The position numbers and the translations under genes are program-made. A stretch of DNA of 64,000 nucleotides from positions 132,481 through 196,480 of the forward strand of contig MU603935.1 in assembly GCA_025201845.1 (NCBI GenBank), read 5' to 3'. Within the stretch, counting starts at the first letter, position 1. The number at the start of each line of letters is the position of its first letter. The notes beneath the pieces are model-generated. The model saw nothing but the letters and a program-made list of their open reading frames with translations, made no database searches and was not told the DNA's origin. This stretch comes from Martensiomyces pterosporus (lineage: Eukaryota; Kickxellomycota; Kickxellomycetes; Kickxellales; Kickxellaceae). Below, one piece after another: positions 5,668-64,000 of the stretch.

Positions 5668-7467
5668 ATGATGCTTCGTGCACTCAGATCAAACACCGTC
5701 AAAGCCGCCGCGACAAGACGCCCCGCTGCCGCCCTGTCTGGTGGCAAGCACCTCTTCTCGACCTCCTCGCTTGCTCGCGAGGAGGACAAGGCGAAGCTCA
5801 ACCGATACAGCTCGATCATCACGCAGCCCAAATCCCAGGGCCCCTCCCAGGCCATGCTGTACGGCACAGGGCTCCAAGAGGACGACATGAACAAGGCCCA
5901 GGTCGGCATCTCGAGCGTGTGGTACGAGGGCAACCCCTGCAACATGCACCTTTTGGACCTCGCGGGCCACGTCAAAGAGGGCGTCAAGGCTGCCGGGCTT
6001 GTCGGCATGCGCTTCAACACGGTCGGCGTCAGCGACGGCATCAGCATGGGCACCCGCGGCATGTGCTACTCGCTGCAGTCACGCGACCTTATCGCTGACT
6101 CGATCGAAACAACAATGGGCGGCCTCTGGTATGACGCCAACATCTCAATCCCTGGGTGCGACAAGAACATGCCTGGCGTGCTGATGGCCATGGCGCGCCT
6201 CAACCGCCCCTCCATCATGGTCTACGGCGGCACGATCAGGCCGGGCCGTGGATGCCAGGGCCAGAGGTACGATATCGTGTCGACGTTCGAGTCCTACGGG
6301 TCGTATGTGGCTGGAAAGATCACTGACGCAGAGCGCTTTGACACGGTGCGCCACGCCTGCCCTGGCCCTGGCGCCTGCGGCGGCATGTACACAGCCAACA
6401 CTATGGCCACGGCTGCCGAGGCAATGGGCATGACCCTGCCGTATTCGTCGTCGTCGCCAGCCACCTCGCAGGAGAAGCTCGATGAGTGCCACCAGGCGGG
6501 AGCGGCGATCCGCAATCTGCTGGAGCTCAACATCTGCCCCAAGGACATCATGACGCGCAAGGCATTTGAGAACGCCATCACGGTGGCCATCGCCATGGGC
6601 GGGTCCACCAACGTCGTCCTCCACCTGATCGCTATTTCGCGGGCCATCGGCGTCAACCTCACCCTTGCGGACTTCCAGGAGATCTCCAACCGCACGCCCT
6701 TCCTTGCCGACATGAAGCCCAGCGGCAAGTACGTCATGGAGGATCTCCAAACGATCGGCGGCACCCCAGCCATCCTCAAGTACCTGGTCTCGGAGGGATA
6801 CGTTGATGGGTCGACAATGACCGTCACCGGAAAGACCCTCGCCGAGAACCTCAGGGACCTCCCCGGCCTCACGGACGGCCAGGACGTCATCCACACCGTG
6901 CAGAACCCCATCAAGCCCACGGGCCACTTGCAGACTCTCTTCGGAAACGTTGCGCCTGAGGGATCAGTGGCCAAGATCACCGGAAAGGAGGGGCTGCAGT
7001 TCGAGGGAACCGCAAAGGTCTTTGAGTCCGAGGACGAGATGCTGCATGCCCTGGAGCGCGGCGAGATCCAGAAGGGCCACGTCGTCATTATCCGCTATGT
7101 GGGACCCAAGGGCGGTCCTGGCATGCCCGAGATGCTCACCCCCACCAGCGCCATCATGGGCGCCGGCCTGGGCAAGCACGTTGCACTGCTTACTGATGGC
7201 AGGTTCTCGGGAGGAAGCCACGGCTTTATCATTGGCCACATCACCCCGGAGGCTCAGGAGGGTGGACCCATTGGGCTGATCATGGACGGAGACAAGATCA
7301 CCATTGATGCGGAGACCCGCCGTATTGATGTGGACGTCTCAGATGCAGAGATGGCGAAGCGTCGCGGCGAGTGGGCTGCCCCGCCACTCAAGGCTGACCG
7401 CGGCACTCTGTACAAGTACATCAAGAACGTCAAGTCTGCGTCCTATGGCTGCGTCACCGACGAGTGA
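5668..7467 (+). CDS. ILV3: Dihydroxy-acid dehydratase, mitochondrial
   Basis: A 599-aa IlvD/Edd-family enzyme. It dehydrates 2,3-dihydroxy-isovalerate and 2,3-dihydroxy-methylvalerate to the 2-keto acids in valine and isoleucine synthesis, in the mitochondrial matrix. The N-terminus is rich in Arg, Ala and Ser with few acids (residues 1-35), as expected for an import presequence. The Fe-S cysteines are in NPCNMH (Cys91), PGCDKNMPG (Cys164) and [10 protein letters not shown] (Cys231 and Cys237). GRFSGGSHG and the [10 protein letters not shown] region near the C-terminus are classic family signatures. The length matches yeast Ilv3 (585 aa). Two tandem ATGs at 5668 and 5671 are both usable. No intron is present. 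A Gcn4-type site upstream suggests general amino-acid control. Confidence 0.96.
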
Positions 7468-10137: not shown

Positions 10138-12927
10138 CTAGGTGTGAGTGCTTGTGCTCGCCTCGTTCTCGTCGTCAGTTGCCGGCGGCTCCTCAAAATC
10201 GGCATCAGCAGATGCGTTGGCGTGGGTGGTGGAGTCCACGAACTCTGTGAATTCGCCCGACGTCCTGCTCTCGCGCCTGTCCGCAGGCGTCGCCTTGCTG
10301 CTATCCTCGGCCTGCTGCTGGCCGTTGCCAACGTAGGGCGAGAACGGCGGAATGGCCCAGTCGCGGATAAACGAGTCGTCCATATCAAGCATATCCACAG
10401 GCTCGCCACCGCCGTTGCCCTGGCTGTGGTGGCGCGGCCGCGACGAGCCCAGGGTGCCCGGAGGCAGACCCGAGGCCTTCTGGAATGCCGCGTACCTGAG
10501 CGCCATTACAACCTGGACATTCGAGTCCTCCAGCGCAATGTCCAGCGGCAGCAGTCCATATGCATCTGGTGTGTCCCACTCGGCGCCACGGCGGATTAGG
10601 TACCAGACGACGCGCACATTGCCCAGCCGCGTGGCAAAGTGCAGCGCCGTGCCGCCAGCCAGTCGGGGCCCCGAGTCCTCGCCCTCCCTATCCACGGCGG
10701 AGCCATCAGCCAGCGCTGGCTTTCCGTCCTGGCTGATCTTTGGCGAGTCAGATATATACTCGGTCGCCGTCATCTTCGCTCTTGTGTTGGCATCGGCGCC
10801 CCACAGGAAGAGCAGCTCGAGCATTCCAAAGTCACCCATGGCCACAGCCTCAATCAGGGGCGTGGACCCAGTCTTTGGGTCGTGTGCATTGACGTCTGCG
10901 CCCTGAGCCAGGGCTTCGAGCGCCATGGGCATGTCCGCCAACCTCGCCGCCCTCACCAGCTTCGCATCTGCCTCCTCCTGGGACTCGGGCTTTGCAACCC
11001 ACAGCCTGTTGGCATACTTCTGCACCAAATACGGCAGCTTGGCCTCCCTCGATGTCTGGCTTGCTGGCTTTTGCGGGTCGTCCTGCTGGGGCTCCATTGA
11101 TTCGTAAATGCGGTTGACGCAGTGGTTGCCCAGTCTCTGCATGATCTGCATGAGCTCGGGCTCCCAGTTATCCAGCTTAACGGACCGTACCTTGCTCACA
11201 TGCACGCCCAGGCTGCGGTGGATTCCAGAGCACTCGATGCACATCAGGACGCCCAGGTTGATCGCCGCCCATTCAGGCGCCCGCTTACCACAGTCCACGC
11301 AGCGGTCGTTTCCATGCGGATTGCGCATCTTGCTCATCCGCGCCGCCTGCGCCGCGCTATCATTCACGCCACTGCCTTCGGTGCCCACCGACTGTCTGCT
11401 GCTGGGCTTGCTGCTCACCGCCGAGTGCATTTCCAGGCTAGCGCCAATGCCAGCCGCCAATTGCGGCGTTGACTGCTTGCTCGAGGGGATGTCCTTAATG
11501 GCCTGGGTTATCGGCGTGTGCGAATAAAGCGAAGTCTCGATTGCCTGTTTCAAGCAGGCCTTCCACGCACTCAGCTCGTCGTTGTTCTCAGCCTGCAGCA
11601 AATACGAGCGCGTGGGTGCGATAAGTTCAAACACGTTGCGCCGGTCCTGTGCCGGTCCTCGCTTGACCATGCATAGATGGAGTGGAATCATCTCCCTGTC
11701 TTTCTCGTCCAGCCGCTGGAAATGCACCAGGTAGCCGTCCTTGATTTCGAACCACCGGCGCTGCCACGAGGACATCAGCGAATACTGGCTGCGCAGGAAC
11801 AGGTATCCGGAGATCTGGAACAGCCCAGTGGGGCTTAGGGAGATCGAGGCAAGGGACTTGCGGTGCGACTTTGATGTCTTGCGTCTGTGCGTTGGCCTGG
11901 CTGCCTTAGATGCTTCGCTCGCACTGGATGCAGTTGCCACTGAGTGAGCGCTGAGGGGGGCGGGGTTGCCTGCAGGGGTCTCGGTTTTGATTGCCAGTGC
12001 CTTGGAGTTCTTGCTAGTCGTGCCGCTGCTCCCGTGTGCCAGATCTAGCGACTCGCCCAGCGACTCGCCCAGCGTCTCGATGCTTCTGACTGATCCAAAC
12101 GTGGCGTCGTCCTCCTGTTGCCCAACCTGCACATATCCATCATCATCCAGCAGCGCCCCGCCCGTATCATTAATCACCGGGTCCACAACCGCCGTCTTGG
12201 CTTCTGCAATCTCCGCCTCGGCCTCCCTCCTCGCCCTGGCAACATGCTCACCCAGCTGCCTCATCGTGGGCTCAAAGTCCTTCAAGGACGAGAATGCCTG
12301 GTGATAAAACGCATACTGCGCGTACATGAGCGACAGAAACCCCTCCAGAAACTCGACCTTCTTCACAGACGCCAGTCTGTTCAAGTCAACCGACAGCAGC
12401 TGCATCTGGTTAATGTACCTGCTCTTTGCCTTCTCCACGTCCTTCTCCTGCACCTCGATCATTGGCTCTGTCACCTTCTTGGCCATTAGCCGCGTCAGCT
12501 GGGACTCGTAATCTCCTTGCAGCATGTCCACACGACGCCTTGCACCGCGCAGCCTCTGCAGCAGCCCTTGATCGGCCATCTCCTCCATGGGCGCAACGAG
12601 GATGTGCTGGAGCTGCTCGGTTTGCATCACGCGGTTGCGCTCGATCTCGCTCAGCACGTCGCCGAACCCGACCAGCGATTGCTCTATGAGCGGATCCTTC
12701 AGGGGCGATAGCTGGGAGATGCTGGAGATGCGGCGCAGCATGTCGATGGACTTGGTGCTGCAGTCCTGGGAGACCTGCTGGAGCTGGCGGCTGGCTTTGG
12801 ACAGACCCTGAATGGCCAAGTCGAGGCTGCCGGCGTACTCTTCGTAGTCCCGGACCCTGGACCTGTAGTGCGGGGAGTCGGTCAGGCTCTCCTCCAAATT
12901 GAGCAGCACGGAGTGCTTGCTGGACAT
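10138..12927 (-). CDS. BAR-PH-ArfGAP-ankyrin protein (ACAP type)
   Basis: A 929-aa Arf GTPase-activating protein. Domains in order: BAR helices (about 1-250), a Ser-rich linker, PH (about 370-470, GYLFLRSQY...RRWFEIKDG), ArfGAP (about 535-640) and ankyrin repeats (about 655-820). The ArfGAP zinc module CVDCG-x14-LMCIEC is followed by HRSLGVHVSKVRSVKLD, which carries the catalytic Arg. The family stimulates GTP hydrolysis on Arf proteins on curved endosomal or Golgi membranes (animal ACAPs, fission yeast Cnt6). The open frame extends 11 codons further but starts at GTG, so the ATG at 12927 (MSSKHSVLLNLEE) is preferred. It converges on the Cys-rich gene (243 bp) and diverges from Cms1. Confidence 0.93.
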   Translation of the reverse strand: MSSKHSVLLNLEESLTDSPHYRSRVRDYEEYAGSLDLAIQGLSKASRQLQQVSQDCSTKSIDMLRRISSISQLSPLKDPLIEQSLVGFGDVLSEIERNRVMQTEQLQHILVAPMEEMADQGLLQRLRGARRRVDMLQGDYESQLTRLMAKKVTEPMIEVQEKDVEKAKSRYINQMQLLSVDLNRLASVKKVEFLEGFLSLMYAQYAFYHQAFSSLKDFEPTMRQLGEHVARARREAEAEIAEAKTAVVDPVINDTGGALLDDDGYVQVGQQEDDATFGSVRSIETLGESLGESLDLAHGSSGTTSKNSKALAIKTETPAGNPAPLSAHSVATASSASEASKAARPTHRRKTSKSHRKSLASISLSPTGLFQISGYLFLRSQYSLMSSWQRRWFEIKDGYLVHFQRLDEKDREMIPLHLCMVKRGPAQDRRNVFELIAPTRSYLLQAENNDELSAWKACLKQAIETSLYSHTPITQAIKDIPSSKQSTPQLAAGIGASLEMHSAVSSKPSSRQSVGTEGSGVNDSAAQAARMSKMRNPHGNDRCVDCGKRAPEWAAINLGVLMCIECSGIHRSLGVHVSKVRSVKLDNWEPELMQIMQRLGNHCVNRIYESMEPQQDDPQKPASQTSREAKLPYLVQKYANRLWVAKPESQEEADAKLVRAARLADMPMALEALAQGADVNAHDPKTGSTPLIEAVAMGDFGMLELLFLWGADANTRAKMTATEYISDSPKISQDGKPALADGSAVDREGEDSGPRLAGGTALHFATRLGNVRVVWYLIRRGAEWDTPDAYGLLPLDIALEDSNVQVVMALRYAAFQKASGLPPGTLGSSRPRHHSQGNGGGEPVDMLDMDDSFIRDWAIPPFSPYVGNGQQQAEDSSKATPADRRESRTSGEFTEFVDSTTHANASADADFEEPPATDDENEASTSTHT

Positions 12928-13360
12928 GTTGTCTCGGACTGATGGCAAAACAAATGGCACAAAAGGGGGGAAGCGTATGCAAAGATGACTGCGTGTGCCG
13001 TAATGTGCAGATTGTCCGACAAAGCAACTAAATGAGCGAAATTAGCGATAGGGAAAGGAGAGGGCGCATAAATACTGCCCTTGCTGAAACGCAGCCTGCT
13101 TGTTTGCTGCCCCGGACTAGCCTAGTGGTGACGACAGTGTGCTCCCACAGCTAGCAGACGCCCCACACGGCACCCCGCCCATCTCCAAGCAAGCGTGCGG
13201 CTCGCTGCTGAGCCGAGCCAGGAAATTTCTTCCACTTCCTGAGAACCGGCAGGCTGCTCAAAGCGCTCCGCGGTGCACTGGCATGCCTTTGGCGGCTTTC
13301 TTGCTCTCGCATTCAACTACTCAAGCACCATTTGCTTCTTATTAGTGGACAGCAGTGACG
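12928..13360. promoter_or_regulatory. Divergent promoter, ArfGAP gene / CMS1
   Basis: 433 bp between two divergent starts. No TATA box or recognised operator is clear. A short tRNA-like A-box string near 13120 has no partner B box, so no RNA gene is called. Confidence 0.3.
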
Positions 13361-44070: not shown

Positions 44071-45372
44071 CTACACCACGAGCATCATGGCCAGGGCACC
44101 GACCACAGCAGCAGCCAGGCTGCCTGTGGACAGCATGACGCTGGCTGCAGACGATGACTTTGTTGTTGTTGCTGCTGCTGCCGAGGCAGAGGCTGTCGAT
44201 GACGAGCCAGCGGCACCACTGCTTGCAGCAGAGCCGTTGTGTGCGATGTCGTTCAGCGAGTAGCTGCTGCTGGAGGAGGAAGATGACGACGACGACGACG
44301 ACGACGCTCCAGCAGTGTTACCATCTACATGTGTGGAAGAAGAGCCGGTGGGAAGTGGCGTTTGGGCAGCACTCGAATGGGTGGACATGTTAGTGGGGGC
44401 AAATGCTGCTGTTGTGGCAGTACTGACAGTGGTGGTGGTGGTGGCTGGTGTGGAGCTGTCAGCAGTAGTTGTGGCAGTTGTGGCAGTTGTGGCAGCAGTA
44501 GTAGTAGTGACTTGTTGTTCTTGCTGTTGCTCTTGCTTTTGCTCTTGCTTTTGCTGCTCTTGTTGCTCCTGCTGTGCTGCATTGTTATCATGCTTATCAT
44601 CGTTACCTTGCTGGGTTACGGCTGACGACGACGACTGGGGATTCGAAGCGGGAGCCGGGGCAGTCGTAGAGGCGGGGCTTGTCGCCGGCGGTGCCGACGA
44701 GGTGGGCTGCTCCGACGTCATACGGGGGGCCACAGCCAGCTGCACGGGCGGGGCACTGCTGACCACGGCCTGCTGCTGCTGAGGACTTGCCACTGGAGCA
44801 GCAGTAGTGGCAGGTGCAGGCGCAGGAGCCGACGAAGTAGGCGCGGCCGCGGCATTATTAGCTACAGGCACAGCGGCCTGGGATGGCGCGGGAGCCGCAA
44901 CGGGAGCCGCGGGGGCAGGCACCTTGGACCCATCAAATGAGCCACCGGAGCTCGCCGGGTTGCTCCAAATCCCCGCGCAATTCTTGTTGTCAACAGGGGC
45001 CCAGGTGGCCGGGCCAATGCCATCGTCGATATTGAAGAGCTTGCCAAATGCCGGCTTGCTCAAATCCAGGCCCTTGCCGCCGGTGTCGACGGCCAGGACG
45101 TAGACGAACTTGGAGTCGTCGTTGGCGTTCGACACCTTGATGCACTGGCCACAGTCCGTGGTCGTGCTCATGGTCTGCACGGCTGTGATGCGCGAGAGGT
45201 CCAGCTCCGCATAGGCCATGCCGCACGAGGGCGGGTTGAATTTGAGCATGTCCAGCGGGATGGACTGGTAGTCGTGGTACGAGATTCTGCCTGAACCGGT
45301 CAGGCTTCCAGCCGCAAGACTCGCAAAGAGCACGGAGAGCAGGGCAAGGAAGTGCGCGAGGTTAGACACCAT
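44071..45372 (-). CDS. GPI-anchored double-psi-barrel wall protein
   Basis: A 433-aa secreted protein. Residues 1-21 form a signal peptide. A double-psi beta-barrel of the RlpA/expansin/barwin type spans about 28-135, with CGMAYAELDLSRITAV, TTDCGQCIKVSN and FVYVLAVDTGG. Next is a long Ala/Pro/Ser/Thr stalk (about 140-385) with Gln/Glu repeats (QEQQEQQKQEQKQEQ) and a run of about 15 Ser. A hydrophobic C-terminus (SLAAAVVGALAMMLVV) preceded by small residues signals GPI attachment. Such proteins loosen or bind wall polysaccharide, and some fungal relatives are induced at surfaces. The barrel lacks the C-terminal expansin carbohydrate-binding domain. Single exon. Stalk repeats suggest variable length between strains. 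Confidence 0.85.
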   Translation of the reverse strand: MVSNLAHFLALLSVLFASLAAGSLTGSGRISYHDYQSIPLDMLKFNPPSCGMAYAELDLSRITAVQTMSTTTDCGQCIKVSNANDDSKFVYVLAVDTGGKGLDLSKPAFGKLFNIDDGIGPATWAPVDNKNCAGIWSNPASSGGSFDGSKVPAPAAPVAAPAPSQAAVPVANNAAAAPTSSAPAPAPATTAAPVASPQQQQAVVSSAPPVQLAVAPRMTSEQPTSSAPPATSPASTTAPAPASNPQSSSSAVTQQGNDDKHDNNAAQQEQQEQQKQEQKQEQQQEQQVTTTTAATTATTATTTADSSTPATTTTTVSTATTAAFAPTNMSTHSSAAQTPLPTGSSSTHVDGNTAGASSSSSSSSSSSSSSYSLNDIAHNGSAASSGAAGSSSTASASAAAATTTKSSSAASVMLSTGSLAAAVVGALAMMLVV

Positions 45373-47163: not shown

Positions 47164-50100
47164 TTACCACGCTAGTCTCGCGACAATGCTTCTTGGATAG
47201 CAGCGCACAATCATCTTGCGCACCTCCTCGCAGGCAACCAGCGCCATTGCAAATGGGATGGGGATGAAGAAGAACTCAAGCGGTATCTTCCCTGTGAGAA
47301 ACACCGAGTTGAACCAGTGGATCTCGTTGACAAACAGGGCCACCACAATCGAAATGGGGACAGCAGCAAGCAGCTGCAGGTTCCGCTTGGGCCCCCAGAA
47401 GGGGTTCTGCTGAGCAACGCTAAGCGTCCGCGTCCTGGCCACAAACATGTTGCCCCACTGCATAATAACCAGAGTGATAAAGTGCACGCTTCCCGCCACA
47501 TTCACGATCTGCGCCAGCTCGTCCTTGGTCTTGCCCATGTACCCGTCCGTCCACTTGTTGAACGCCAGAAACACGTGGCGGGGCTCAATGCCGCCGCGCA
47601 AATAAATGCACAGAAAGAACATGAAGTGGCCCGTCAGCGTCTGTATCAGGCCGATGAATCCGTATGCCTGCAGGAAGAACCTCGCATTGACCAGCCCCTC
47701 CTTCTTGGGGTTGCGCGGCGGGTGCAAGAGAATGTCGTTCTCAGGCTCCTCGTCGATCAGCTTCACAGACGCCCAGACATCCGTGATCGTATTGATCACA
47801 AGCATCAGAAACGTCGACAGTGGGATTGGCAAGCCCAGGACGACATTCAGGAATGACGGCACAATCTCGCTCAGGTTGGTCACCGGCAGCAGGTAAATGA
47901 TGACCTTTTGGAGATTGGCAAACACAAGGCGGCCGCACTCGATGGCCACCACAATGGACGAGAAATTGTTGTCCAGGAGCACCATCTCGGCCACTTCCTT
48001 GGCCACCTCAGACCCGTTGCCCATCGCCACGCCCACATGGGCTGCTCGCATGGCTGGCAAGTCGTTGACATCATCACCCGTCACTGCCACGTAGTTCTCG
48101 CGCACACGGAGCTCCTCGACGATCTGGAGCTTCTGCTCGGGCGTGATGCGTGCAAACACGATCTCCTCGTACGTGGCGATGGCGTCCCAGTGCTCGGACT
48201 GCAGACCAACCAGCTCGGGCCCCGACACCACCAAGGAGTGGCGGCACTTGCACTCGGGCGAGCCACTGGCGCTAGAGCTGATTCGGCCCACAGTGGTAAG
48301 AGAATGCTCTCCGCTGTCTGCGCTGTTCACATGATGTAGCTGGCTCGAGTGCGCGCTCAGCGAGGTCGAGTAGCAGGAGCACTCGAGCAAGCCGGTGGCT
48401 GTTGTTGACGGCGACTCCCTATGCCACCCGCCGAGCTTCCTCACGCCGTCCTTCACCTTCATCCTGCCCCTGCCCTGGCTGGAGCTACTGAAGCTGCTGC
48501 TGATCACACGCTTCTCGCTGCTGATCAGGGACTCGGCACGAGCCAGCACATCGCCGATGTGGTCGATCACCGTGCCTGTAATGATTCGGCACTGGCGAGC
48601 GACATACGCGGCGGTCGGCGCATAGTCGCCGGTCACCATGAACACACGTATTCCCGCGCCTCTGAACGTGTCCACCACACCCGGAATCTCCTCCCTGGGC
48701 GGATCAACCATCCCCACTATACCGACAATGCACAGGTGATCAATGGACTCCGTAGCCGCCGCATAGAGTTTAGCGGGGCTATCCTCGATCCCCACAAACG
48801 GATTATCCTTGCTCTCAAAGTCGCGGCGACACAGAAGCAGCACACGGCTGCCTTCCTGCGCCCATCTCAGCTGAATCTCCTCCAGCCTTGCGCGCATCTC
48901 GCGGCCAAAGGGAAACAGCTTGCCCTGGGAGTCCTGGATCTGCGTGCAGCGACGGTACAGCTGCTCGGGCGCTCCCTTGATCAGCATAAATGGGCTGGGA
49001 TCGGCGGAGCTGGGCTCTTTGCAGATCGAGAGCATCCACCGGTTGCGCAGACTGAATGGAATGGTGTAGAGAACGGAGTAGTCGTGCTGTGCCTCCTGGG
49101 TGGGCCGCAGGTGCTCGGCCAGGCGGAGCAGCGCAGAATCAGTGGCATCTCCCGTGACTACCCGCTCGTTGATCGACAGGTGCAGGGAGGATGCATCGAA
49201 CGACGCATCGTTGCACAGCGTCGATGTCTCATACAGCCGCTTGATAGCTGCGGGCAGTCTCTCGCTGCTCTCGCGGCCAGCACCGCTGCCAGAGCAGCTG
49301 ACCAGCTCATTGAACGACACCTCCTTGTCCGAAAACGCCGCACGCACGGCAACCATCCGGCGCTGTGTCATCGTTCCTGTCTTCTCGCAGCAAATGACGT
49401 TGACCGAGCCCAGGGTCTCCACCGTGGTCAAATTCTTGATAAGCACGTTGTGTCTCTGCATTCGCTTGGCAATGGCCGTCAGCGCCAGCGTAAGCGAGAT
49501 GGGCAGGCTGCCTGGAACAAAGGTGACAAGGACACCCACGCCGTTGGCCAGCGCATCCGACACGGACATGAATCCAGGAAACGACGTGCGCAGCCAGACC
49601 GCCCACAGGATAATGAAAATGCCGCCGACAACAAGGGACAGCGTGGTGAGACCGTTGACCAGGCGGTGGACTTCGATCTGCAGGATCGTGCGCTCGGGCT
49701 TCTTCCTCTGCGTCAGCCTGTTGATCCTCCCCAGGACCGTACGGTCGCCGGTGGCCACCACCACACCCGTGCACTGGCCCTGGGTGACGTTGATTCCCAT
49801 CATCGCCATGTTGCGTGTCTCCAAATAGTTGGCGTTTGTGTAGCTGACCGTGCCGATTGTGGGGTCTGGGATGCCCGTCAGGATGGACCGGTCGAACATC
49901 AGGTCCTGCGACACCTCCACAAGCCGCATGTCCGCAGGCACCTTGTCTCCCACATGCAGGCGCACGATATCGCCTGGGACCAAGTCGGCCGGCGGTAGCT
50001 TTGCAGCGACGCCGTCTCTCAGCGCGAGCGTCTCGGTGGGCAGCATGTTGGTTATGGAATCCATGGCCCGCGACGTGATCCACTCCTGCCACGCGTTGAA

Positions 50101-50787
50101 CGCAGCCTGGATGCAAATGACAAGGATAATGACGATTGCCATGGCCATGTTTCCCGGTTGTGGCGGGTTGCCAATGGGCTTCCAGCAGAGCCAGAAGACC
50201 ACCATTGCGAGCCACAAGAACCGATTGAACCCGCCAAAGAACCAGCTCACCACTCGCTGTGGGATTCTCCTCGACGCCGGGCTGAACACATTCCTGCCGT
50301 GTCTCTCCGCACGCCTCTCGACCGCCGCAGCCTCAAGCCCTCTCAGGGGCTGTGGGATTCTCCTCGACGCCGGGCTGAACACATTCCTGCCGTGTCTCTC
50401 CGCACGCCTCTCGACCGCCGCAGCCTCGAGCCCTCTCAGGGGCGATGTGTTGAACCTGGTGTAAACCTCGTTGACCGTGTCCATGTGGAATCTGAGGTTG
50501 CGCAGCTGCTCGGCGATCTTGATCATCGCCACGTCCCTCTGGTGCTCATACGTTTGCCGCTGCTGGTGGGCCGAGCGCAGGGGGATGAGCTCGTTGAGCA
50601 GCTCGCGCCACCTGGGCGAGCGCAGGAACGCCTGGAGCGTTTGGCGGCGCTGGGTAGTGCGCTCTTGCGTCTCGCTGAGCTGGATGCTCAGCGTGCGGAA
50701 TTCAGCCGCCAGATGCAAGTTACTCCGACATAGCGTGGCGTGCTGGGAGAGCTGCGGCGGTCTTGAATCGGCGATTTGAATCTCCAT
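47164..50787 (-). CDS. Na,K-ATPase-family P-type ATPase with altered catalytic motifs
   Basis: A 1207-aa membrane protein with the P2C-type ATPase layout. A 110-residue coiled-coil-like N-terminal extension is followed by a cation-ATPase N segment present twice (116-146 and 147-177), then the membrane, A, P and N domains and six C-terminal membrane segments. Motifs that differ from consensus: TGES is TGIP (304-307); PEGL is PGSLP (425-429); the phosphorylation motif DKTGT is EKTGT, with Glu468 in place of the acceptor Asp; TGDGVND is TGDDVND (903-909). KGAPE, VTGDYAPTA and the C-terminal INTITDVWAS/DEEPENDIL region are kept. Loss of the acceptor Asp and of the TGES Glu predicts no normal transport cycle, yet the frame is fully open. 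A Ser-rich insert of about 100 residues interrupts the P domain. A sensor or chaperone role is speculation. Confidence 0.85.
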   Translation of the reverse strand: MEIQIADSRPPQLSQHATLCRSNLHLAAEFRTLSIQLSETQERTTQRRQTLQAFLRSPRWRELLNELIPLRSAHQQRQTYEHQRDVAMIKIAEQLRNLRFHMDTVNEVYTRFNTSPLRGLEAAAVERRAERHGRNVFSPASRRIPQPLRGLEAAAVERRAERHGRNVFSPASRRIPQRVVSWFFGGFNRFLWLAMVVFWLCWKPIGNPPQPGNMAMAIVIILVICIQAAFNAWQEWITSRAMDSITNMLPTETLALRDGVAAKLPPADLVPGDIVRLHVGDKVPADMRLVEVSQDLMFDRSILTGIPDPTIGTVSYTNANYLETRNMAMMGINVTQGQCTGVVVATGDRTVLGRINRLTQRKKPERTILQIEVHRLVNGLTTLSLVVGGIFIILWAVWLRTSFPGFMSVSDALANGVGVLVTFVPGSLPISLTLALTAIAKRMQRHNVLIKNLTTVETLGSVNVICCEKTGTMTQRRMVAVRAAFSDKEVSFNELVSCSGSGAGRESSERLPAAIKRLYETSTLCNDASFDASSLHLSINERVVTGDATDSALLRLAEHLRPTQEAQHDYSVLYTIPFSLRNRWMLSICKEPSSADPSPFMLIKGAPEQLYRRCTQIQDSQGKLFPFGREMRARLEEIQLRWAQEGSRVLLLCRRDFESKDNPFVGIEDSPAKLYAAATESIDHLCIVGIVGMVDPPREEIPGVVDTFRGAGIRVFMVTGDYAPTAAYVARQCRIITGTVIDHIGDVLARAESLISSEKRVISSSFSSSSQGRGRMKVKDGVRKLGGWHRESPSTTATGLLECSCYSTSLSAHSSQLHHVNSADSGEHSLTTVGRISSSASGSPECKCRHSLVVSGPELVGLQSEHWDAIATYEEIVFARITPEQKLQIVEELRVRENYVAVTGDDVNDLPAMRAAHVGVAMGNGSEVAKEVAEMVLLDNNFSSIVVAIECGRLVFANLQKVIIYLLPVTNLSEIVPSFLNVVLGLPIPLSTFLMLVINTITDVWASVKLIDEEPENDILLHPPRNPKKEGLVNARFFLQAYGFIGLIQTLTGHFMFFLCIYLRGGIEPRHVFLAFNKWTDGYMGKTKDELAQIVNVAGSVHFITLVIMQWGNMFVARTRTLSVAQQNPFWGPKRNLQLLAAVPISIVVALFVNEIHWFNSVFLTGKIPLEFFFIPIPFAMALVACEEVRKMIVRCYPRSIVARLAW
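50257..50442. repeat. 93-bp tandem duplication inside the ATPase gene
   Basis: Copies at 50257-50349 and 50350-50442 are identical except for one base near 50335 (A versus G). The unit encodes 31 residues of the cation-ATPase N-terminal domain (PLRGLEAAAVERRAERHG...) and keeps the frame. Near identity means a very recent event or an assembly artefact. Confidence 0.95.
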
Positions 50788-61457: not shown

Positions 61458-61925
61458 CTAGGAGAGCCAATCACAGCGCAGACATGTTACATTCACTTTA
61501 GTGAGTATAGGAGACATGCATCGTGGTAGTAATGTGGCAGGTATGCGCTGTGTGCAAATGGTGCATGTATGCTGCTGCTGTGGGCGGTCGAGGAGTAAAA
61601 TTAACTGCAGCAGCACTATGGCGAGCCATTGCACATTAGCGGCAGTGCGAGCGAGAGCGAATGGAGTAGATGAGCAATTAGAACAATAGGGTAATGATGC
61701 GCAGCGCAGATTTTCTGGGGAGAGGGTTAGGTTTTGCCTGCATGCCCGCCCCCGCTCGAGCAAAATGAAATGTGCGCACAAATAAAGGATATCAGGTATA
61801 GAAAAGGGACAATTGGCGCAATGTCTGTGCATAGACAGATATAAGCACCCAGTGCGGCCATGAACACGCAAAGCAAGCGACCATTTCCGTTCTTTGGCTA
61901 GCAGGGTGCTGCTGCTGCTTCTTAC

Positions 61926-63513
61926 CTTCAACAAAAGTTGCAGAGGCAGGTGACTGCTCAGATGGCATGTATAGCGCGCCAATGCTTTCAGACGATACGC
62001 CGACGCCCGACTGCTGCTGCTGCTGCTGCTGCTGGCCAGTTGGTGTCAGCGACTGTGAATGGATGCCCGCCTGGCTGCTGCTCTTGCTGCCTCCGCCGCT
62101 GTTCATGCTATTGTCGGCTGGCCCAACAATGGACGCCAACGCCAAACCAGGGTCCGTCTGGATATTTAGGGACGGGGCCTGCAATTGCAGCTGGTGCTGC
62201 TGCTCCTGGGACGGTGTGGATGACTGCTGCAATGCCAGTGCTGCCTGCTGGTGCTGCTGGTGCTGCTCAAAGGCAACCAGACCTCCTACGTTTCCAGTGA
62301 AATTCGACTGTGCATCGACAATAAAGCTGTGCGGCTGTGCCTTGTTCCCCTGAGCCTGGGGGATATCCTCGGGGATAAGCAGCGCAGCGGCAGTGGCAGA
62401 AGTCGCAGGCAGCTCAGTGCTGCCAGCCTTGCCGGCCTTATCAGCACCCTGTCCCGAGGAGCCCTGAGGCCGCGCGCGCTGGGCAGTCTTTCTGCGATTG
62501 ACCGACTCCGTGACCGAGGCCAAGGTCTCCGTCAAGTCATTCGCCGCAATGGGTCCGCTCTTCTTCTCCTTCTGGTTAATTATGCGCTGGATCTTCCGCC
62601 AGCGGTTGCGGCAATGGAGACCCGGGCGACCCTGGAAGAATGTGGCGATCTTTTGCCATTGTGTCCCGAACTCTGCAAACTTCTCCAGCAGCAGCCTGTC
62701 TTCCTCCGGCCGCCATTTGCCGCGATCAATCTCGGGGTCCAGGGACTCCCTCCACCGCTTGGCGCACTGGTCGTCTGTCCGCCCCGGAATGCCCTCTGCG
62801 ACGCGCGACCACTGCGAGGGAAACTGCGCAACGCGCTCGCGCAGAAGCTCGTCCTCCTCTCCGGTCCACGGGCCCTTGTGCAGGGACGGGTCGAGGGAGT
62901 GAAACCAGCGCTTTCGGCAGCTCTTGTTCGTGCGGCCAGGCACGAGCATGGCGATCCGCGGCCACGACTCCGTGTTGGGGCCGTACACCTTGACGCCGAC
63001 CATGAGCAACCGGTCCTCGTCGCGCGTCCACGCGGCTCTGAGCTTTGGGAACGTCAGCTTGGGGTCGCCTTCGTTGTATGACGCCTCGACGTCCTTGAGA
63101 TACTGGGAGAGGTCCAGCTCGAGCATGGACTCGGCGTCCAGCAGCTTGAGGATCTCAATGGCCTGGTCCTTGGCCATCCTCACCTGCTCCAGCAGGGAGG
63201 CGCCGCTGGCCGAGATGTTGGCTGTGCTGCTGTTCACCAGGCTTGTGAGGGCAGGCGGCGGCTGGAACCTCCTTCCATGGGCGGCAGCGGCGGCGGCGGC
63301 AGAGGCGGATGATTTAGAGCCCGCACGTGGCCGCGTCGCCCTCAAATTAGATCCCGAGGCCGCGGAGTGCTCGGACACTATGCGCTGCTGCTGCTGCTGC
63401 TGCTGCTCTGTTTGGGCGTGCATCTTCCGGAAGGACTTGTTGGGATGGCCGAGTTCTCTGACCTCGTAGTGCTCGTCCTCGTCGGGGCCATCAATTCTGT
63501 TGTGCATGGACAT
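61926..63513 (-). CDS. R1R2R3 Myb DNA-binding exon (5' part of Myb-zinc-finger gene)
   Basis: From the ATG at 63513 (MSMHNRIDGPDEDEHYEV) to a strong donor (GAAG then GTAAGA) at 61926/61925: 529 codons plus one base. A polyQ run and a poly-Ala run precede a helical segment (about 105-150). Three Myb repeats follow (about 155-320) with the Trp spacing W...W...W in each: AWTRDEDRLL...W...KRWFHSL; GPWTGEEDELL...W...KRWRESL; GKWRPEEDRLL...W...NRWRKIQ. This is the DNA-binding core of Bas1/c-Myb-type factors. The open frame runs 152 codons upstream, but that stretch is hydrophobic leader sequence. If the donor is not used, the protein ends 44 residues later at 61792. Gln/Ser-rich sequence follows the Myb core. 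Confidence 0.85.
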
Positions 63514-64000
63514 CTTGGCGTTCTGTCCAGGGCAGCAGAGTCTACAAAATAGAAATACAGCCGGGTTTGCGTTTGGCAGAAGGGAGGAGTGTGTTTTCAG
63601 TGGGAAAAGTGTGAATTGGAGAAAGGATGAGAGCGTGAGATTATACAAAGAGCGGGCTGTCGCGTAGTGCAAAAGGCAGGGAAAAGGGGAATCATGTGGA
63701 GAAGAGGAAAGGCGAATGGGAGCTGAATTGAATTGGGTGGATGAATGGGTGGGCGGGTGATGTCCACCCTTGCCGTGCCTTTCTAAATTAACACAATAAG
63801 GACGCCTGCTGCTTCTGCTTCTGCTGATGCCTCTGGTGCCTCTGATGCCTGCTGCGGGGGAAGGTGCAATTGGCAGCACAGGCAGCAGCAGCAGAAGCAG
63901 GAAAAAGAGGGCTGAGGGACGAGGGGGCACAGCAAAGGACAGCCAGTGAATGGCAGAAACAGAGGACATAGCGCGCCACTACATGACAGCAGCAGCAGCA
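63514..64000. other. Upstream region of the Myb gene to the window edge
   Basis: 487 bp. On the minus strand it is CT-rich, as in the other leaders. A TATTTTGTAG acceptor-like string at about 63541-63550 lies about 30 bp before the ATG and may end a 5' UTR intron. Short CTGCTG/CAG runs lie at 63810-63900 and at the edge. No gene is supported. Confidence 0.35.

Follow-up and report, generated by a model that had tools for sequence, protein, structure and literature searches.

The altered pump gene

P-type ATPases are defined by their phosphorylated aspartate. A window of 64,000 nucleotides of the Martensiomyces pterosporus contig MU603935.1 was analysed, and it carries a gene of this superfamily, P0001, in which the aspartate is replaced by glutamate (Glu468) and several further catalytic motifs are changed. 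The gene and its features are as follows:

47164..50787, minus strand: putative pseudo-pump gene P0001, 1207 codons open from ATG without a stop
50257..50442, minus strand: tandem in-frame duplication of 93 bases, copies at 50350-50442 and 50257-50349
49867..49881, minus strand: actuator motif LTGIP, residues 303-307, with the TGES Glu replaced by Ile306 (codon ATC at 49870-49872)
49501..49515, minus strand: M4 motif PGSLP (PEGLP in normal pumps), residues 425-429, with the ion-binding Glu replaced by Gly426 (Gly426 and Ser427 codons at 49507-49512)
49369..49389, minus strand: phosphorylation motif CEKTGTM, residues 467-473, with Glu468 in the place of the acceptor Asp (codon GAG at 49384-49386)
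48964..48978, minus strand: KGAPE, residues 604-608, with the ATP-binding Lys retained
48238..48561, minus strand: Ser-rich P-domain loop, residues 743-850, of variable length among relatives
48061..48081, minus strand: TGDDVND (TGDGVND in normal pumps), residues 903-909, with the added acid Asp906 (codon GAT at 48070-48072)
47866..47895, minus strand: M5 ion-site stretch YLLPVTNLSE, residues 965-974, with new Thr970 and Asn971 and retained Glu974
47779..47799, minus strand: M6 ion-site stretch VINTITD, residues 997-1003, with new Asn999 and retained Asp1003

An earlier note, made from the letters of this stretch, had described the open frame of 1207 codons, Glu468, TGIP, PGSLP and TGDDVND, together with kept KGAPE and TGD motifs, and all of these were confirmed; MVTGD (residues 717-721) and DPPR (695-698) are, like KGAPE, the same as in normal pumps. 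Six Pfam families of the cation P-type ATPase and HAD hydrolase kinds score above their cut-offs in P0001, covering both the N-terminus and the C-terminal domain of cation ATPases, the E1-E2 ATPase, the cation ATPase and two hydrolase families. The same gene is represented elsewhere by the NCBI protein P0002 (1176 amino acids, named 'calcium ATPase'), which differs from P0001 only in having a single copy of a 31-residue stretch that P0001 carries twice in tandem. The two DNA copies of this repeat in P0001 mismatch at 1 of 93 bases and encode residues 116-146 and 147-177 (31 amino acids each). The repeat may have arisen by recent duplication or may stem from the assembly. An intron might also account for the single copy in P0002, but only with GC-AG boundaries, two of which fit, and with no GT-AG.

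The P-type ATPase superfamily model TIGR01494 matches P0001 with 218.5 bits, above its cut-off of 62.3. Two hallmarks of the superfamily are nevertheless absent: the Asp of DKTGT, missing from P0001 and 33 other proteins of its clade, and the actuator Glu of TGE(S), replaced by Ile306. The P2C fold proposed in the earlier note holds insofar as the P2C model TIGR01106 is the best NCBIfam match, but with 621.4 bits against a cut-off of 946.1 the label is approximate. The normal Linderina paralogue P0036 is also under this cut-off (804.3 bits), and the P2D ENA model TIGR01523 gives 259.1 bits, under its cut-off of 645.05. The parent family is fungal Na/K-ATPase-alpha-like and P2C-like, and perhaps belongs to the IIE/ACU group, to which only the database name of P0052 and P0089, 'K, P-type ATPase', points. 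Applying AlphaFold2, a full P2-type model of P0002 was obtained with a predicted local distance difference test score (pLDDT) of 82.6 from 60 aligned proteins, showing the P2 arrangement of a membrane domain with A, P and N domains. The normal Linderina copy was modelled with a pLDDT of 82.1 from 42 proteins, and both models align over more than 900 residues with sodium and proton pumps.

A clade of glutamate-type proteins in the Kickxellales

Relatives were collected in three protein searches with P0001, an alignment of 35 Glu-type proteins and the normal Linderina protein P0036 as queries. The best 120 rows of each were clustered at 90% identity, and all counts given here are among the matches listed. 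Residue 468 in the 231 distinct proteins that were aligned, P0001 included, is Glu in 35 and Asp in 195, one fragment being without the site. P0002 was set aside as a second record of the same gene, which leaves a Glu set of 34 proteins, with P0006 and P0014 near-identical. The searches with the Glu-type alignment and with the normal Linderina protein returned no Glu protein beyond the first set among their best 120 rows each. All 33 Glu proteins besides P0001 fall in a Kickxellales clade, and the other motif changes are also common to them with few exceptions. The alignment of homologues had been proposed in the earlier note as a test, and its refuting outcome, homologues with DKTGT and a change in this copy only, was not borne out. 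A sequencing error or a pseudogene was rejected because 33 other proteins carry the same Glu.

Within the Glu set, Glu468 is fixed (34/34), in the context CEKTGT in 33 proteins and CEKSGT in one. The TGES Glu is absent from 32 of the 33 proteins with a residue there, and eight different residues are found at position 306. The M4 Glu is replaced by Gly in 32/33 and by Ser in 1/33, and position 906, the Gly of TGDG, is acidic in every protein (Asp in 25, Glu in 9). By comparison, the Asp-type proteins have the TGES Glu in 195/195 and the TGDG Gly in 194/194. Two kinds of change can be told apart, position 306 being variable whereas others are fixed to one new residue, with 906 acid-only. A single new residue is present in every Glu row with a letter at 376 (Leu), 422 (Thr), 467 (Cys), 468 (Glu), 581 and 583 (Arg), 881 (Ile), 913 (Met), 970 (Thr), 971 (Asn), 996 (Leu) and 999 (Asn). 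The earlier note had spoken of coordinated loss, which holds only in part, the ion site and residue 906 having gained new fixed residues.

Three quick maximum-likelihood trees were calculated without bootstrap from 46, 46 and 45 rows, including 21, 34 and 20 of the 34 Glu rows; the 46-row tree with all 34 gave a long-branch warning. All Glu rows used form one group in each tree, with a Shimodaira-Hasegawa-like approximate likelihood ratio test (SH-aLRT) value of 100. In the two trees with outside rows this group joins the Asp-type copies of Linderina, Kickxella and Coemansia with a support of 99, and Mycoemilia P0044 is placed outside. The Glu group is sister to these Asp copies, and the duplication therefore seems to predate the separation of Martensiomyces, Linderina, Kickxella and Coemansia. 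A long stem (0.82 changes per column) leads to the Glu clade. The identity of the putative pseudo-pump to the 12 normal Kickxellales members is 46-53%. A second Mycoemilia scoparia paralogue, P0179, keeps the Asp (CCDKTGT) and has PNGVP, KGGSD, VPPR and LGDGIND, which may reflect a partial drift of separate origin.

Some soil fungi carry the Glu copy beside a normal ion pump. Both copies are present in the same strain, by locus-tag prefix, in Coemansia sp. Benny D115 and C. spiralis BX070, and under the same species name in Linderina pennispora and Kickxella alabastrina. The Asp copies within the same species offer a ready control. For the normal paralogue that the earlier note suggested looking for in the Martensiomyces genome, a fragment (L002, G000:C95, 1-2175) was found with its last 263 residues readable and the preceding 1386 bases given as N. 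This fragment clusters with the Asp copies in one tree, but its DKTGT place falls in the N stretch and is unreadable. The co-occurrence of the copies leads to the question whether the Glu copy is a regulatory subunit or dominant-negative partner that tunes the trafficking or activity of the Asp copy, without any ion or ATP sensing of its own. Aggregates of Pma1 D378T take in the wild-type pump, as stated in PMC3692421, which is in line with such a partner. The two new fixed Asn residues of the ion site and the fixed ATP-site residues, however, are left unexplained by it, and we regard this explanation as unlikely, if still worth considering.

To compare constraint, six pairwise identities were calculated among the four species or strains with both copies, giving 68.6-80.5% for the Glu copies and 76.8-80.7% for the Asp copies; the Glu copies diverge somewhat faster in five pairs and about equally in one. 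For the C-terminal 262 residues, Martensiomyces compared with four others gave 77.9-79.0% for the Glu copies and 77.1-80.2% for the Asp copies. Across the Glu clade, 291 of 866 core columns are invariant. As estimated from these protein alignments, constraint on the Glu copies is close to that on the normal paralogue. A decaying duplicate, or an error in the sequence, would agree with the faster divergence and the long stem, yet the invariant columns and the presence of this Glu in 33 further proteins of a single clade speak against it, and we consider it highly improbable.

Among Asp-type proteins outside the Kickxellales, 205 columns are conserved. The Glu clade loses 25 of them (in at least 80% of rows) and keeps 160 (likewise in at least 80%), whereas the normal Kickxellales copies retain 196. 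Catalytic, ATP or ion-site zones, which comprise 64 of the 205 columns, contain 19 of the 25 lost columns (p 1.1e-6, a guide only, since the zones were drawn after the list of lost columns was seen). Of the marks of a pseudoenzyme, the sequences show loss of catalytic residues, conservation and protein-level constraint. The earlier idea of a maintained pseudo-pump is well supported by the 33 further Glu proteins in one clade and by the existence of Asp-bearing sister copies.

Two other features that had been thought new turned out to be shared with normal copies. The N-terminal motif RTLSIQ is present in 19/35 Glu rows and 9/12 normal Kickxellales rows, while some rows without the exact motif have a close variant or lack the start of the protein; MEIQ starts are found in both kinds. 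The Ser-rich insert, with 108 residues in P0001, is one of the long forms of a variable loop, which spans 23-108 residues across the Glu copies, 26-65 across 11 normal Kickxellales copies and 16-123 across the other Asp-type proteins; in the P0002 model the corresponding region (739-816) has a pLDDT below 50. Judged from the alignment, the N-terminal region and the Ser-rich loop are not special to the putative pseudo-pump.

ATP pocket, ion site and candidate role

The ATP-site residues Asp547, Thr549, Asp550, Phe578, Arg648, Asp721, Lys886, Asp905 and Asp909 are kept in 34/34 Glu-set proteins and Lys604 in 33/34. The family Lys at 583 is Arg in all 34, and Asn908 is replaced by Pro in five. 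Next to the exchanged acceptor, Lys469, Gly471 and Thr472 are kept in 34/34 and Thr470 in 33. The protein could still be a pump in which Glu468 is phosphorylated to a glutamyl-phosphate within a modified cycle involving the added acid at 906. In favour of this, position 468 always holds a carboxylate, and Lys469, Gly471, Thr472, Asp721, Lys886, Asp905 and Asp909 are invariant. On the other hand, the TGES Glu is gone in 32/33 and the Pro at 908 occurs in 5/34. Furthermore, the same exchange was designed to remove pump activity in the laboratory allele D409E of Caenorhabditis elegans CATP-1 (PMC11631496), and D378E is listed among dominant lethal alleles of Pma1 in PMC3692421. We regard continued pumping as improbable.

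The four ion-site places of M5 and M6 read Ser/Thr, Glu, Cys/Ser and Asp in normal fungal copies, and Asn971, Glu974, Asn999 and Asp1003 in the Glu clade. Asn971 and Asn999 are fixed in the clade and replace the family residues Ser971 and Cys999. We take these four places to be those of Asn776, Glu779, Asp804 and Asp808 in pig Na,K-ATPase, so that the M6 residue Asn999 presumably sits where P2C pumps have Asp804. With SERCA, Asn971, Glu974, Asn999, Thr1002 and Asp1003 presumably line up with Asn768, Glu771, Asn796, Thr799 and Asp800; residue 1002 is Thr in 25/33 Glu-set proteins. With helix limits taken from the AlphaFold2 model of P0002, M5 and M6 together gain five polar residues with no loss, M4 gains as many as it loses (three each), and the remaining seven helices gain six in total against a loss of four. 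This pattern suggests a change in ion binding that was afterwards maintained.

The same changes could point to a passive ion pathway, either an ATP-gated or a constitutive channel or uniporter, in a protein that would lack phosphorylation, has lost the M4 Glu and has become more polar in M5/M6. Exchanges in this direction are E426G, G427S and A422T in M4, G970T, S971N and M978S in M5, and V992T, C999N and M1000T in M6, and palytoxin can turn P-type pumps into channels. However, the protein retains Glu974 and Asp1003, as an occluding site would, and the polar balance of M4 is even overall, and a channel appears doubtful to us.

The explanation that we favour, to which we give about an even chance, is that of a maintained, ATP-binding, non-phosphorylatable pseudo-pump acting as an ion or nucleotide sensor or regulator, its role being inferred from sequence. 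A duplicate of a fungal Na/K-ATPase-alpha-like pump would have arisen in the Kickxellales and lost the phosphoenzyme cycle by exchange of the acceptor Asp for Glu, loss of the dephosphorylating TGES Glu and replacement of the M4 Glu by Gly. The fold and the ATP pocket would have been retained and the ion site in M4 to M6 remodelled. Mg-ATP may still bind and close the N domain over the P domain, which Glu468 and the added acid at 906 would keep in a single, fixed metal-binding state that partly resembles the phosphorylated one. A cation bound among Asn971, Glu974, Asn999 and Asp1003 would shift the conformation, and the protein would signal the ion or nucleotide status, probably to a partner, for instance the active paralogue, with no uphill ion movement. 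A more specific variant, in which the Glu serves as a permanent phospho-aspartate mimic and, with the acid-only position 906 and the two-Asn cation site, yields an ATP-gated cation sensor or channel, seems to us speculative and rather unlikely.

Besides the faster divergence of the Glu copies, several observations weigh against a non-phosphorylatable sensor or regulator. P0005 has TGET, with Glu at the TGES place, and the M4 Glu is missing in 16 of the 195 Asp-type proteins (present in 179), so that its loss alone is no mark of a dead pump. The fixed motif residues may persist for structure alone, as so many core columns are invariant. The models of the Glu and the normal copy match the same states about equally, both with the best Z for E2-AlF or K+-occluded structures and an rmsd of 4.6 A to the E1-AMPPCP pump (8ijm), so that the AlphaFold2 models show no locked conformation and no difference of state. 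In addition, the main result of the CATP-1 paper is a pump-dependent role, earlier pump-independent evidence being discussed there (PMC11631496). The clade is a conserved, probably non-phosphorylatable relative of an ion pump.

Comparison with known systems and neighbouring genes

Fungal Na/K-ATPase-alpha-like pumps share with the Glu clade the fold, the domains, the RTLSIQ-type N-terminal motif, KGAP, TGD, the M5 Glu and the M6 Asp, but the parent family keeps the Asp acceptor, the TGES Glu, TGDG, Ser971 and Cys999, and the Glu clade is changed at each. The alpha subunits of animal Na,K-ATPase and H,K-ATPase (P2C) give the best Protein Data Bank sequence matches (9kcg, E 2.4e-161) and the best structural rows, at 30-34% identity; the Glu protein differs in lacking the DKTGT Asp and in scoring under the TIGR01106 cut-off. 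SERCA, at 26-27% identity, has the same four M5/M6 side chains (Asn, Glu, Asn, Asp) in the presumed alignment, but the counterpart of its Glu309 is Gly. Members are named in the database, among other ways, as 'calcium ATPase' or as 'putative Na/K ATPase alpha 1 subunit', both probably misleading, and as 'hypothetical protein'.

CATP-1 D409E is the same substitution in a Na,K-ATPase-like pump, yet man-made and single, whereas the change in the Kickxellales is natural, clade-fixed and one of several. The ATPase domain of PfGC-beta is described as degenerated, and the Toxoplasma protein as keeping the Asp, in PMC6592433; these proteins are P4-like and joined to a cyclase, in contrast to the stand-alone P2 protein with selective, fixed changes found here. 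PMC7588218 describes fungal IIC (NK1/2) pumps and mentions those of the IIE/ACU group. Judged by titles and abstract starts, the Kickxellales Glu proteins were not found described in the open-licence literature, and 'Kickx' and 'Coemansia' had no match in the main text of a paper on alpha-subunit evolution (PMC9609216). A single listed paper, PMC8070225, contains both 'P-type ATPase' and 'Kickxella'. The Glu clade is apparently undescribed as a clade. A natural, clade-wide Asp-to-Glu exchange that is fixed while another catalytic position varies amounts to a natural test of a P2 pump without the phosphoenzyme, and it bears on the debate over whether Na,K-ATPase-like proteins have pump-independent (signalling) roles.

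A plus-strand frame of 525 codons at 48421-49998 lies antisense within the ATPase gene and is most likely due to chance, given the third-position GC of 0.79 of that gene. Elsewhere in the window, a frame at 44071-45372 has a cerato-platanin match of 22.8 bits, just below the Pfam cut-off of 24.4, and a BAR-PH-ArfGap-ankyrin protein is encoded at 10138-12960. Other neighbours are an MBOAT protein (589-2043), a dihydroxy-acid dehydratase (5668-7467) and a three-repeat Myb protein (61792-63969).

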